The notes under the pieces: model-generated
What the model was told of the DNA's origin: nothing
The model's input: only the letters and a program-made list of their open reading frames with translations
The model's database searches: none
Shown here: one piece after another, positions 1,444 through 18,673 of the stretch
Position numbering within the stretch: the first letter of the stretch is position 1
How the letters are laid out: every line of letters starts with the position of its first letter
Made by a program: the position numbers and the translations under genes
DNA from: Glutamicibacter creatinolyticus
GTDB lineage: Bacteria > Actinomycetota > Actinomycetes > Actinomycetales > Micrococcaceae
Direction of reading: 5' to 3'
Length of the DNA: 64,000 nt
Assembly (NCBI RefSeq): GCF_006094275.1
Contig: NZ_CP034412.1
Coordinates: 1 to 64,000, forward strand

Positions 1444-1973
1444 GACCGAAAACCACAGCTGTGGATAGATTTGTGGATGAACTGGTGACAGCTCCAGAGG
1501 TCTCTGCGGATAACTCAGGGGGTCGCTGTGGATCTAAAAAACCGTGAAACTGAGTATCAACACCTTCGTGGAACTGAGTTCCACTTGAAACCACAGACTG
1601 TTCACATGCACAATCTGGGTTCGATCTGCCCTTTAATCGGTTATCCACAGGATCCACAAGGGTTATTAACACTCCCCCTTTAAACCCTTAGGCCTTCAAA
1701 TAACGAGTCCTTGTTCCCCTGACCTATGCCTCTCACCGAACACCAAGATCAGCTGTCGCTGATGTCGGAGACATTCTGGACAACGCAGGAACCTCGTGAC
1801 ATCACATCGAGCCACTTACCGGAGCGATCAGCTTTTCTCGGTGAGAGCAATAGCTCTAAACATGGCAAGATTGACCTTGCTCCGTGGTTCGTTGTCTATG
1901 CTTAAGAACTCGGTAGAGATTGACCTCAAAGGCTTGCTGGCAAGCTAGTGCGCTCCGAAAGGCGGATTGATTC
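1444..1973. other. oriC-like spacer between dnaA and dnaN with DnaA boxes
   Basis: This 530-base gap holds no credible gene. Against the consensus TTATCCACA I find one perfect box at 1641-1649 and one-mismatch boxes on the opposite strand at 1460-1468, 1472-1480 and 1505-1513, with weaker ones at 1527-1535 and 1650-1658. An AT-rich stretch follows the perfect box at about 1660-1700. The gap also has a 12-base direct repeat GTGRAACTGAGT at 1544-1555 and 1568-1579, and a perfect inverted repeat GTGGAAC-TGA-GTTCCAC at 1568-1584. In actinobacteria the replication origin usually lies between dnaA and dnaN, so this is the default oriC call, but box quality is modest and a denser cluster exists at 16.25-16.73 kb. 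Confidence 0.75.
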
Positions 1974-15276: not shown

Positions 15277-15318
15277 GGGCTCCGGTCGCCATTGAAGTGG
15301 CGGTCGGAGCCCATACCT
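15277..15318 (+). terminator. Hairpin after ppiA, probable terminator
   Basis: The stem GGGCTCCG (15277-15284) pairs with CGGAGCCC (15305-15312) and is extended by seven more pairs including two G-T pairs, around a loop of about six bases. The following T run is short, so this could be a weak terminator or an mRNA end stabiliser. Confidence 0.5.
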
Positions 15319-15367
15319 TTAACGTCCCCGCCGCTTCCCCAACACTAAATATCTGAGGAACACCCCC

Positions 15368-16225
15368 ATGTCCTACGGGCAAGTCTCACCGGAATCAACG
15401 CAGGTACCGACGTGCTACCGGCATCCAGACCAGATCTCCTACGTGTCCTGCCATCGATGTGGGCGACCAGTATGCCCACGGTGCCAGGTCTCTGCCCCGG
15501 TAGGGGTGCAATGCATTGAGTGTGTCCGCAACGCCAACAGGGCCATACCCAGTGCGAAGACCGAGTTTGGTGGGACCGCCCGCTCGAGTGCAAAACCGGT
15601 GGTGACCTACACCCTGATCGGCGTAAATTTGCTGATATATGTCCTGCAATGGGTCATCCCCAATTTCACGCAGCAAATAGTGCTCGTCGGCGCACTGGCT
15701 TACTGGGAGCCCTGGCGTGTACTGACCAGCGCTTTCGCCCACTCGCAGGGGTCTTTGCTGCATATCGCCATGAATATGTACGGCGTGTATATCTGCGGGG
15801 TGCTGCTGGAACCGCGTCTTGGACGCATGCGCTTTGGCTGGCTCTATTTCCTCTCGGCCTTGGGTGGTTCTCTGGGCGTCTTGCTTCTCAGTGACCCGTA
15901 CACTGCGACTTTGGGTGCATCGGGAGCGCTCTCGGGTTTGTTCCTGGCCTTGTTTGTGGTTTTCCGTACCAACCGGACCGCGTTGCGCCAAATGGGAATT
16001 GTCCTACTGCTAAATGTCGTTATGGGCTTCGTGGTGCCCGGAATCTCCTGGCAAGGCCACCTAGGCGGAGCAGTGCTTGGCCTAGCTGCCGCAGCGTCCA
16101 TCGTACTTATCCCCAAGGGATCCCAGCGGACGACCTTGCAATTTGTTCTGCTCGGTATTCTCAGCGTGGTGGTAACGGGCATGCTCTATCTGGCAGCGGT
16201 GACCGTTCGTTTTCCACTGGCCTAG
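15368..16225 (+). CDS. Rhomboid-family intramembrane serine protease with N-terminal zinc finger
   Basis: The 285-residue protein starts with a cytoplasmic B-box-like zinc-binding module: CYRHPDQ, then two CxxC pairs (CHRC, CPRC) and a further CIEC pair. A rhomboid domain of about six membrane helices follows. The catalytic serine is S185 in GASGALSG and the partner histidine is H231 in SWQGHLGG; the HxxxN element is HIAMNMYG. It should therefore be an active membrane protease. The gene sits between ppiA and the DnaA-box cluster, and the position matches a rhomboid often found near the actinobacterial origin. Its substrate is unknown. Confidence 0.93.
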   Translation: MSYGQVSPESTQVPTCYRHPDQISYVSCHRCGRPVCPRCQVSAPVGVQCIECVRNANRAIPSAKTEFGGTARSSAKPVVTYTLIGVNLLIYVLQWVIPNFTQQIVLVGALAYWEPWRVLTSAFAHSQGSLLHIAMNMYGVYICGVLLEPRLGRMRFGWLYFLSALGGSLGVLLLSDPYTATLGASGALSGLFLALFVVFRTNRTALRQMGIVLLLNVVMGFVVPGISWQGHLGGAVLGLAAAASIVLIPKGSQRTTLQFVLLGILSVVVTGMLYLAAVTVRFPLA

Positions 16226-16259
16226 TTCGAACACTACTCCAGTGCCTTATCCACACTGC

Positions 16260-16298
16260 TTATCCACACTGTTAATAACTTACACACATGTAATTCCC
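16260..16298 (+). repeat. DnaA-box direct repeat, copy 1
   Basis: This 39-base unit begins with a perfect DnaA box and continues CTGTTAATAACTTACA and then GTAATTCCC. It matches copy 2 at 16539-16577 with four substitutions over its whole length. Confidence 0.85.
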
Positions 16299-16538
16299 GA
16301 GCCGAACCGGGTTGTTAGATGCCGTGGATTCCCTTGTTGCCGGGGCTGGAGGGCAGACGTTCAACTATTTTACACAGGAATCTCCACACCTGTGGATAAC
16401 TTTTAAACAGGGCCTGTAGATTCACGTTTTCCGAGCATGGAAGCATTCGGATCGCCTGATTCGAATTTTTAAACGACTCAAGGCTGACATGTACTTATAT
16501 GGACTTCTGGTGACTCAAAGTGCTCGTATCCACAGCGG

Positions 16539-16577
16539 TAATCCACACTGTTAATAACTTACAGGCGTGTAATTCCC
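16539..16577 (+). repeat. DnaA-box direct repeat, copy 2
   Basis: This second copy of the 39-base unit begins with a one-mismatch DnaA box (TAATCCACA) and keeps the CTGTTAATAACTTACA core and the GTGTAATTCCC end. It lies 279 bases after copy 1 in the same direction. Confidence 0.85.
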
Positions 16578-16795
16578 CTCCCTCCACTTCCCGGGATCCC
16601 CGGGTTTTCGGTTCTTTTGGGGGAGGCGCCGACGGACTTCTCCCCAGCTGTGGATAACTTTGTGAACAAGTTGTCGCGAAAGATTCCCACAGGTGCTGTG
16701 GATAGATGTGGGGAGCTGTTGATAACTGCGCAATCAAATCGCCCGCCTATTAGGCAAGGAGGATGTCGCCGGCGGCTCGGGGCGGGATTTTCCGC

Positions 16796-17407
16796 CTAGA
16801 ACAGGGGGAGGATCAGGCGGATCGCAAAGTAGAGCATGAACAGGCAGATGAACCCGTCGAGCAATTGCCAAGCGCGTGGCTTGGCGAAGATGCGCGCCAA
16901 ATAACGCGAGCCAACACCGAGGGCCATGAACCAGACCAAGCTGGCGACGATGGCACCAGCACCAAACTGCCAACGGGCACCGGCAAATGAGTTGCCGATA
17001 GAACCCAAGAGCAGAACGGTATCAACGTAGACGTGAGGGTTGAGCCAGGTGAGGGCGAGGGTGGTCAACGCCACTCTCCATGCCGAGGATTCGCTGGGGG
17101 AGTTCTTGGTAGCCATGCTCGTGGGAGAGAGCGCGCGGCGTAGCGCGAAGAGGGCATAGAGTGCCAGAAAAAGTGCTCCACCTATGCGTGCCGCACTCAT
17201 GATCCATTCCGCGCGCTCTATCAGGGCACCCAGGCCGGCAATACCCGCAGAGATCAGGACAATGTCCGAGAGCATGCAGATGATGATCGCCACCCAAACG
17301 TGCTGACGAGTGATTCCCTGGCGCAGGATGAAGGCATTTTGGGCGCCGATCGCGACGATGAGCGACAGTCCGGTGCCGAAGCCCAACAGGGCAGGTGTAG
17401 CAAGCAT
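16796..17407 (-). CDS. LysE/ArgO-family basic amino acid exporter
   Basis: The 203-residue membrane protein has about six helices and begins with the family opening GFGTGLSLIVAIGAQNAFILRQG (residues 9-31), then TWLNPHVYVDTVLLLGSIG around the fourth helix, both diagnostic of LysE/ArgO exporters of lysine and arginine. It protects cells from excess basic amino acids. It is divergent from a LysR-type regulator 71 bases away, the same arrangement as lysE-lysG in Corynebacterium. I cannot tell lysine from arginine preference. Confidence 0.93.
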   Translation of the reverse strand: MLATPALLGFGTGLSLIVAIGAQNAFILRQGITRQHVWVAIIICMLSDIVLISAGIAGLGALIERAEWIMSAARIGGALFLALYALFALRRALSPTSMATKNSPSESSAWRVALTTLALTWLNPHVYVDTVLLLGSIGNSFAGARWQFGAGAIVASLVWFMALGVGSRYLARIFAKPRAWQLLDGFICLFMLYFAIRLILPLF

Positions 17408-17410
17408 GTA

Positions 17411-17438
17411 GCAACAGTAGAAAAACCCCAGAACTGTT
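17411..17438. promoter_or_regulatory. Inverted repeat in the exporter/LysR promoter region
   Basis: CAACAGT (17411-17417) is mirrored by ACTGTTG (17432-17438) across 14 bases, inside the 71-base gap between the divergent exporter and LysR genes. LysR regulators normally bind such dyads upstream of the gene they control, so this is a candidate operator. The assignment rests on position only. Confidence 0.4.
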
Positions 17439-17478
17439 GTCGAACTTAAAAGTCTTAGGACACTTTAGAGTTGCTAAT

Positions 17479-18363
17479 GTGAACTTCGATTTTGAGCAGC
17501 TGGAGACTCTCCTGGCGGTCATCGAGGCTGGCAGCTTCGATGGCGCCGCCATTGACCTGGGGATCAGCGCTTCAGCGGTGAGTCAGCGCATGAAGGCACT
17601 GGAGAAACGGGCCGGGACCATTCTCGTGTTGCGTAGTAAGCCGGTGCGGCCCACCGAGCCCGGTGTCACGGTGCTGCGCTACGCGCGCCAGATCGTCTCC
17701 CTGGGCAGAGAGCTGAACACGCATCTGGGGGAAGGGGAGCATGCGGAAACGCCCCAACGGATCACCATTGGCGTCAATGCCGATTCCCTGGCAACTTGGT
17801 TCATCGACGTTCTGCGGGAACTGGGTCGCCGCGAGGACCTCATTTGTGATTTGCGCAGGGGAGATGAGCACCGTAACGCGGAACTGCTGAGGAAGGGCGA
17901 GGTCAGTGGGGTGGTGACGACCGGCGCCGATGCGGTGCAAGGATGCGCGGTGCAAAAGTTGGGAACCATGCGCTACTGGGCGGTGGCATCAACGGAATTC
18001 ATTGCCCGCCGAGGCGGAATGGCGCCACGTGACTGGCTGGCGGTGGCCCCGGTGGTGATCTTTGACCGCGACGATCCGCTGCAAGCCCAGCTGCGTGGGC
18101 GAGTGACCGGACAGTCAACGTGGGACGGAGTGGCGACGCACTATGTCCCGGACTCGTGGCGTTACGCTACGGCAATTGAGGCAGGTATGGGCTGGGGGAT
18201 GCTGCCGGAACTGCAGCTGCGGCAGCTGCCTGAGCTGCACCGTCTTGACGATGCATGGAGCATTGAGGTGCCGCTGTACTGGCAACGGTGGTCCATGGGT
18301 TCGCGGGCACTGGACAGTTTCGGTCGGATTCTGATGTCCGCGGCACAGGCCGCCGGGCTTTAG
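17479..18363 (+). CDS. LysR-type regulator of the exporter (LysG/ArgP type)
   Basis: From GTG 17479 the 294-residue product begins MNFDFEQLETLLAVIEAGSF and has a winged helix-turn-helix (SASAVSQRMKALEKRAG) and an effector domain. The sequence pattern and the divergent LysE-type exporter point to the LysG/ArgP group, which turns on basic amino acid export when lysine, arginine or histidine builds up. No ribosome binding site precedes the GTG, and a -10-like TAGAGT at 17466-17471 lies seven bases upstream, so the message may be leaderless. An earlier in-frame start at 17437 would overlap the regulatory gap and is less likely. Confidence 0.9.
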   Translation: MNFDFEQLETLLAVIEAGSFDGAAIDLGISASAVSQRMKALEKRAGTILVLRSKPVRPTEPGVTVLRYARQIVSLGRELNTHLGEGEHAETPQRITIGVNADSLATWFIDVLRELGRREDLICDLRRGDEHRNAELLRKGEVSGVVTTGADAVQGCAVQKLGTMRYWAVASTEFIARRGGMAPRDWLAVAPVVIFDRDDPLQAQLRGRVTGQSTWDGVATHYVPDSWRYATAIEAGMGWGMLPELQLRQLPELHRLDDAWSIEVPLYWQRWSMGSRALDSFGRILMSAAQAAGL

Positions 18364-18400: not shown

Positions 18401-18673
18401 CTATTTCCAATTTGTGGTCATGAAGAAGCCGATCATGGCAATGCCAAAACCGATCACGATGTTCCAGCCACCAATGTTGGGGATGGGGAAGAGCGTCTGC
18501 GAAATGTAGTACACCATGACCCAGACCAGGCCAAGGAGCATCAGCCCGAACATTACCGGCTTGTACCAAACCGGATTCGGGCTCTCAGCGCTGCGCGCCG
18601 CGCGCTCCGCGGCGGCCTGGGGCTTCTTCGTGCGACGCTTCGATTCCGGCAATGTATAGCTCCCTAGCTTCAT
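18401..18673 (-). CDS. crgA: Cell division protein CrgA
   Basis: CrgA is a small actinobacterial divisome protein that interacts with FtsZ-ring and peptidoglycan-synthesis partners. The 90-residue product has a basic N-terminal tail of about 35 residues, two membrane helices (VMFGLMLLGLVWVMVYYISQ and IVIGFGIAMIGFFMTT) separated by the conserved FPIPNIGGWN segment, and ends in NWK, as CrgA does. A -10-like TACAAT lies six bases before the ATG and there is no clear ribosome site, so it may be leaderless. The place between ppiA and pabA is the conserved one. Confidence 0.94.
   Translation of the reverse strand: MKLGSYTLPESKRRTKKPQAAAERAARSAESPNPVWYKPVMFGLMLLGLVWVMVYYISQTLFPIPNIGGWNIVIGFGIAMIGFFMTTNWK

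Follow-up and report, generated by a model that had tools for sequence, protein, structure and literature searches.

The gap between the rhomboid and LysE-type genes of the window (the whole stretch of 64,000 nucleotides analysed) carries an array of DnaA boxes. Dense, conserved boxes were found at this convergent rhomboid–crgA junction, which usually lies near the origin, in the relatives compared. On sequence evidence, we hold with moderate confidence that the array gap is a DnaA-binding control locus, acting as a reservoir or timing site, and not the origin. We take the dnaA–dnaN gap to be the origin.

The features of the array gap are given below, with column identities as means over 18 genomes.

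16226..16795, no strand: whole convergent intergenic region with the array (sequence, ORF list and profile matches of the neighbours)
16247..16255, + strand: perfect DnaA box TTATCCACA, first of a tandem pair spaced 13 bp start to start (box scan; identity 0.98)
16260..16268, + strand: perfect DnaA box, second of the tandem pair (box scan; identity 0.99)
16270..16278, − strand: TTATTAACA motif (TGTTAATAA on the + strand), 1 base from box 16260 and inverted to it, possibly a weak box or a trio-like element (identity 1.00)
16391..16399, − strand: perfect DnaA box (box scan; identity 1.00)
16526..16534, + strand: one-mismatch DnaA box, first of a second tandem pair (13 bp), within the 51-bp direct repeat (box scan, repeat scan)
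16539..16547, + strand: one-mismatch DnaA box, second of the second tandem pair (box scan, repeat scan)
16549..16557, − strand: second TTATTAACA motif (identity 1.00)
16649..16657, − strand: perfect DnaA box (box scan; identity 0.99)
16661..16669, − strand: TTGTTCACA variant box, TGTGAACAA on the + strand (read from the sequence; identity 1.00)
16697..16705, − strand: one-mismatch DnaA box (box scan)
16717..16725, − strand: one-mismatch DnaA box (box scan)

The initial annotation had counted four perfect and four one-mismatch TTATCCACA boxes on both strands of this gap, and the scan returned the same eight, within 479 bp. The array includes a 51-bp direct repeat (86% identical, copies 279 bp apart), which carries a tandem box pair followed by TGTTAATAAC. 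Over 5000 dinucleotide shuffles of the gap 16226–16795 (51% GC), the mean number of boxes was 0.12 and the largest was 2, against the real 8. The genome (3,309,128 bp, one contig) contains 23 perfect boxes, 4 of them in the array. When up to one mismatch was allowed, 248 matches were found versus 185 for the box pattern read backwards, indicating that single one-mismatch boxes are near background and that clustering is the signal. Density was scanned in 500-bp windows around the 23 perfect boxes only, and the best counts were 8 for the array, 7 upstream of dnaB, 4 for the dnaA–dnaN gap and 4 near 3.14 Mb. The array is thus the densest cluster around any perfect box, and it is denser than the dnaA–dnaN spacer, as had been claimed. 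The count given for that spacer, one perfect box (1641) and three one-mismatch boxes (1460, 1472, 1505), was reproduced. The statement that no gene explains the array gap is probably also right. The sole ORF inside it in the list of ORFs of 80 aa or more (80 aa, 16495–16737, − strand) is crossed in the genus alignment by indels that are not multiples of three. An Rfam search of 15300–17500 gave no match. The gap holds 4 terminator-like sites (1.1 expected) and 1 promoter-like match (0.8 expected).

Four neighbouring genes were identified by profile matches.

15368..16225, + strand: gene for a rhomboid-family protease, the conserved landmark to the left of the array (PF01694, 6.6e-29)
16796..17407, − strand: gene for a LysE-type exporter to the right of the array, converging on rhomboid and lying here between the array and crgA (PF01810, 9.7e-36)
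17437..18363, + strand: LysR regulator gene of the ArgP/LysG family, divergent from that for LysE (NF002964, 2.1e-88; cut-offs of NF002964 and TIGR03298 exceeded, that of NF009888 not reached)
18401..18673, − strand: crgA, a cell-division gene with boxes at its 3′-end outside the family (PF06781, 9.1e-30)

The array gap lies between two 3′-ends in the window, and the LysE gene is reversed in 7/7 genus stretches. Since the immediate neighbours converge, control of either through a promoter in the gap is unlikely; the boxes of the window do not lie upstream of a gene start. A LysE exporter beside an ArgP/LysG regulator (16796–18363) adjoins the array. IciA is another name for the ArgP of E. coli. 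The available part of PMC4285127 gives the IciA of M. tuberculosis as an origin-binding inhibitor. The proximity is probably a coincidence, because LysE occurred in the stretches of only five genera (g1, g18, g21, g23 and g30).

The rhomboid gene with boxes downstream was present in all 18 genus genomes, and the alignment showed the boxes in nearly fixed register. This spacing was kept although the 17 other rhomboid proteins were only 58–69% identical to that of the window. The 72 columns of the window's own boxes had an identity of 0.92 across the 17 relatives, and 78% of them were the same in every one of these; the corresponding values for the remaining 407 columns of the box interval were 0.49 and 20%. 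With boxes named on the consensus and weak motifs included, the values were 0.95 and 74% versus 0.66 and 16% elsewhere in the array, and 0.97 and 81% versus 0.79 and 36% in the dnaA–dnaN gap. Consensus naming flatters box conservation, and the TTATTAACA motif was named after being seen; the contrast was repeated with the window's boxes only, as given above. The array boxes are selectively conserved. Among the matches listed, the paired motif with copies 264–281 bp apart occurred in Glutamicibacter, Paeniglutamicibacter, some strains filed as Arthrobacter and one Micrococcaceae bin.

In the family Micrococcaceae, stretches of up to 20 kb starting 600 bp before dnaN were taken from 40 genomes, and 5 stretches ended at contig ends. 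In the stretches holding rhomboid, the richest box cluster past dnaN was close to this gene, approximately 12–17 kb from dnaN, mostly with 4–14 boxes in 600 bp (G042 had only two). In G058 the box cluster was inverted as a block with rhomboid and its neighbour. In eight genomes rhomboid was located separately, and all eight had 3–8 boxes in the 1.5 kb after it. The gene was 106 kb from dnaN in G018, which had three boxes, each of them perfect, and 147 kb in G065, which had six. The initial annotation had proposed a comparison with the same gap in related genera, and the array was kept at the same gene junction there. At least three boxes lay within 2.5 kb after rhomboid in 42/42 family loci from 31 genera, moved loci included (7 loci were from the window's genus; genus g29 was left out). 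Weak arrays included those of G042, with four boxes in 2.5 kb and at most two within 600 bp, and G031, without a perfect box. The exact motif ATCCACANTGTTAATAAC was found in 52/295 family genomes and 7/32 genera, with single matches also in unrelated bacteria among the matches listed; the array is wider than this motif.

The crgA gene was found in 26 of the 42 family loci, always on the strand opposite to rhomboid. When the two genes lay within 1.5 kb, 8/11 loci had a box no more than 300 bp from crgA. When the interval exceeded 1.5 kb, only 1/15 did, and the array stood beside rhomboid. The box spacing after rhomboid was regular in the family. For neighbours up to 30 bp apart, + + pairs were spaced 12–13 bp in 39/42 cases and + − pairs 10–11 bp in 33/38, with − − pairs being less regular.

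The survey was extended to the class Actinomycetes, where 111/118 genomes had a rhomboid match. Forty loci from 24 families outside the window's family were fetched, picked by rhomboid match, size of contig and spread, and boxes were defined as TTATCCACA or TTGTCCACA with up to one mismatch. These 40 loci contained 84 boxes in the 700 bp directly following rhomboid, versus 5.1 expected from shuffles of the same sequence; for comparison, 112 kb of gene and upstream sequence held 11. At least three boxes in these 700 bp were present in 17/40 loci (10/24 families). Where crgA was found (27/40 loci, 18 families), it was always downstream of rhomboid on the opposite strand. All 27 loci had a box within 300 bp of the crgA 3′-end, 22 of them had two or more, and 83 boxes fell in 8.9 kb. 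In five loci (L319, L323, L326, L344 and L345) with a rhomboid–crgA gap of 1.3–2.7 kb, one or two boxes lay near crgA. Among the 13 loci without a detected crgA, 12 had 0–2 boxes in 700 bp and L325 had four.

We considered boxes locked to crgA alone and rejected this, in view of the single box-bearing crgA end among the 15 family loci with a long interval. As the boxes stay by rhomboid in the family and by crgA outside it, the constant feature is the rhomboid–crgA junction and not one gene end. In the class loci, + + pairs (5/8) and − − pairs (12/14) were spaced 12–13 bp, and + − pairs 10–11 bp in 5/12. The − − spacing of 12 bp was also the commonest in the dnaA–dnaN gap; therefore, this spacing is not special to the array.

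The search for an unwinding site used a signature simplified from the accessible sections of PMC8287927: two boxes 0–3 bp apart, a spacer of 2–7 nt and at least three NAN trios. One site was found in the window.

1641..1672, + strand: probable origin-unwinding site in the dnaA–dnaN gap (box 1641–1649, box 1650–1658, 5-nt spacer, three DnaA-trios at 1664–1672)

Across the genus, the signature occurred at the same aligned place of the dnaA–dnaN gap in 18/18 genomes and in the array in 1/18. The window's array showed no such combination of near-abutting boxes, short spacer and at least three DnaA-trios. In the family, the dnaA–dnaN gap had the signature in 28/35 stretches, and in many genera five trios followed the boxes. 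The array had it in 4/28, at differing places, with the same count in the 2.5 kb after rhomboid. The signature was missed in both gaps, or in the dnaA–dnaN gap, in 7/35 stretches (genera g12, g13, g14, g15, g16 and both of g21). Shuffles of the two gaps gave a signature candidate in 0 and 2 of 900 (mononucleotide) and in 2 and 5 of 900 (dinucleotide). The least stable 60-bp stretches of the array and the dnaA–dnaN gap were about equal, with means of −1.215 and −1.223 kcal per step. The trio-bearing TTATTAACA element of the dnaA–dnaN gap (1662–1670) recurs inverted beside array boxes at 16270–16278 and 16549–16557, and none of the 18 genomes differs at these places. With up to two mismatches allowed, six parS-like sites, two of them perfect, lie at 3300737–3305415 of the genome, approximately 4–8 kb left of dnaA, and they do not help to settle a 15-kb difference between the gaps. 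Kocuria rhizophila is, we assume, a member of the same family as the window's organism. Its genome has a putative oriC with trios placed between dnaA and dnaN, according to the available text of PMC12500396.

The GC-skew minimum, which the initial annotation had named as a check, gave a mixed answer. The raw cumulative minimum fell inside the array in 4/7 genus stretches (window, G001, G006 and G015). In the other three it did not, lying about 1 kb right of the array in G003 and elsewhere in G004 and G005, and gene orientation confounds this measure. For four of these stretches the skew was also followed into wider flanks. In the four genus genomes analysed at fourfold sites, the genes on the dnaN-to-gyrA side were at or near lagging-strand values, or below them. 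The dnaN–gyrA coding strands were C-rich at fourfold sites in 40/41 family stretches, including seven without the array in the stretch. The exception was G028 (genus g12, low GC), where these strands were strongly G-rich and the skew turned where gene orientation turned. Skew minima were at dnaN in the array-bearing relatives G078, G041 and G068. Since gene blocks point toward the array from both sides and the dnaN–gyrA strands are C-rich, a skew minimum between the blocks would arise even if no origin lay there. The skew, including its local minimum at 16.6 kb, therefore speaks neither for nor against an origin in the array.

The initial annotation had offered three roles for the array: the main origin with the dnaA–dnaN gap as its remnant, the second half of a split origin, and a datA-like titrating locus. 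A working origin at the array in this genus, with the dnaA–dnaN gap left as a remnant or as a control region of dnaN, appears quite unlikely to us. The greater number of boxes in the array, the raw skew minimum there in 4/7 genus stretches, the lagging look of the dnaN-to-gyrA-side genes in four genomes and the equally unstable 60 bp would all agree with it. They are set against the tandem boxes with DnaA-trios, found in the dnaA–dnaN gap in 18/18 genus genomes and 28/35 family stretches and in the array in 1/18 and 4/28, and against the conservation of the dnaA–dnaN gap itself. The skew minimum is moreover expected from gene orientation, minima lie at dnaN in three array-bearing relatives, and in two other relatives the boxes have moved to 106 and 147 kb from dnaN. 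The same relocated arrays weigh on the split origin, in which DnaA bound at the array would loop to the dnaA–dnaN gap and help to open it; the boxes stay at the rhomboid–crgA junction even at these distances. The available part of PMC4285127 describes bipartite origins as spanning no more than about 2 kb on either side of and including a spacer gene, with mollicutes treated separately. The two gaps of the window lie 14.6 kb apart, with no second cluster within about 2 kb across a spacer gene, and the dnaN–rhomboid distance varies from approximately 10 to 147 kb among relatives with boxes. A split origin would not tolerate such variation if the limit in that part of PMC4285127 holds. The trio-like motif in the array also points back at its box and not away from it. 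Looping would suit the conservation of both gaps and their common TTATTAACA motif. The excerpt of PMC13270200 recalls proposed DnaA domain I contacts between distant box clusters of the Streptomyces origin, with similar roles suggested in other actinomycetes. On balance, we regard this arrangement as unlikely.

With promoter control unlikely and a split origin disfavoured, a site that holds DnaA remains. The datA-like locus was the best fit of the three suggestions, by the conservation of the array and the origin signature elsewhere; the part that stood is the place and density of the boxes, and the titrating role itself is still a reading of the sequence. The array has the appearance of an oriC-proximal regulatory cluster, with dense boxes outside oriC, 14.6 kb from the dnaA–dnaN gap (106 and 147 kb in two relatives). 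On this reading, DnaA would bind the array cooperatively and be held there. Lying close to oriC, the array would be copied soon after initiation, the number of strong sites would double, and free DnaA would fall. The lowered free DnaA would delay re-initiation, as is reported for the oriC-near clusters of B. subtilis and S. coelicolor and for datA of E. coli. Several observations fit such a holding site less well. The raw skew minimum in 4/7 genus stretches is what replication starting at the array would give. Outside the family, only 17/40 loci had at least three boxes in 700 bp, and 1–4 boxes are little for titration. The accessible part of PMC5295017 judges the role of the B. subtilis clusters to be slight. 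Nor would simple titration lead one to expect a gene junction as fixed as this.

DnaA at the array might instead regulate a neighbour, either as a transcription factor or by acting where crgA or rhomboid ends (in this genus, LysE), as a roadblock or an aid to termination at the 3′-end. The boxes at the crgA 3′-end in 27/27 loci outside the family, including the five with a gap of 1.3–2.7 kb, and the excess of terminator-like sites (4 versus 1.1) are consistent with this. The neighbours converge with no promoter of either in the gap, the promoter-like matches are near expectation (1 versus 0.8), and within the family only 1/15 long-interval loci had a box at crgA, no single gene end being constant; we therefore consider regulation of a neighbour distinctly improbable. 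A DARS-like site, which would recharge ADP-DnaA to ATP-DnaA and not hold or inactivate DnaA, could use the box pairs at preferred short spacings for a defined nucleoprotein complex. IHF or Fis sites support DARS2 in E. coli. The sequence evidence here is alike for nucleotide exchange and for titration, and we rate recharging as very improbable. A broader proposal is that the array is an ancestral, class-wide initiation-control element of Actinomycetes whose position is selected, with DnaA bound there coupling initiation either to crgA or to how the origin region folds. A junction fixed across at least 18 families is not explained by simple titration; this proposal would have position selected as well as box number. 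A narrower version, with the function confined to the 3′-end of crgA itself, is weakened because the boxes stay by rhomboid in the family when genes intervene. The proposal is possible but doubtful, and the control locus described above remains our preferred reading of the array.

Other DnaA-box regions were found in the genome. A cluster directly upstream of dnaB (genome approximately 3254940–3255290; approximately 1440–1785 of locus L022) had 7 boxes, 2 of them perfect, in 500 bp. All 30 family loci returned had 4–10 boxes in the 600 bp before dnaB, from a search in which 50/50 genomes had a dnaB match. These boxes suggest that DnaA controls expression of the helicase, or that the cluster is another site holding DnaA. 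The family has at least three conserved DnaA-box regions: oriC, dnaB and the rhomboid–crgA junction. The dnaB gene occurs twice in the genome (3107043–3110851 and 3249273–3256293), inverted and approximately 146 kb apart, with a 100% identical protein match. The surroundings match in pieces of 96.7–100% identity, and nine segments of 34–1627 bp, some of them in the box cluster, are present in the copy at 3.25 Mb and absent from the other. This odd pattern may reflect a duplication followed by deletions, or an assembly problem. The GC skew between the inverted copies (3109129–3253000) is opposite to that of the sequence closer to the origin, a pattern that a recent inversion between the copies would produce. 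A small cluster of 4 boxes, 2 perfect, lies at 3139819–3140035 between genes that by eye resemble a SulP-type transporter and a LuxR-type regulator.

To our knowledge, how actinobacteria prevent DnaA from re-firing the origin is poorly understood. Besides the window's own family, at least 18 others have the array at one junction, which offers a single small non-coding deletion for study in several laboratory species, in many of them next to a cell-division gene. Box density and raw GC skew, the usual clues to an origin, can point to a gap other than the one with the unwinding signature. A literature search of titles and abstracts, with subscription papers thinly covered, found none on DnaA boxes at the crgA or rhomboid genes. 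Elements of this kind are known; a class-wide position at the rhomboid–crgA junction was not met in the literature searched, which is weak evidence of novelty.

Several known systems resemble the array. The basal unwinding module, as given in the accessible sections of PMC8287927, shares with the array the boxes and the trio-bearing TTATTAACA element, but it sits in the dnaA–dnaN gap and is lacking from the array in 17/18 genus genomes. The datA locus of E. coli, like the array, has dense DnaA boxes away from oriC, and both are expected to lower available ATP-DnaA once duplicated. datA works with IHF and promotes DnaA-ATP hydrolysis. The array is likened to it by box density and place; IHF and hydrolysis are features of datA. 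The box clusters of B. subtilis are also non-origin sites. The loss of six of them outside oriC (Okumura et al. 2012) causes early initiation, with a role judged slight, according to the available part of PMC5295017. It is their joint loss that gives early initiation; B. subtilis belongs to a different phylum from the window's organism, and no homology is claimed. According to the excerpt of PMC4585315, initiation at the wrong time can be repressed by oriC-near box clusters in both B. subtilis and S. coelicolor. Like the array, the S. coelicolor clusters lie outside oriC but near it, in an actinomycete. Smulczyk-Krawczyszyn et al. reportedly described them in 2006 as H69, H24 and D78. The crgA gene of S. 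coelicolor presumably lies on cosmid H69. In S. coelicolor, crgA is SCO3854, according to the part of PMC4255298 available. The four genomes of family f21 (7–10 Mb), which are probably Streptomyces, had 8–17 boxes before dnaN and 4–6 in the same rhomboid–crgA gap as the window's array. The dnaA–dnaN gap is the richer of the two in f21, whereas the array is the richer in the window. One published Streptomyces cluster may be the same element as the array.
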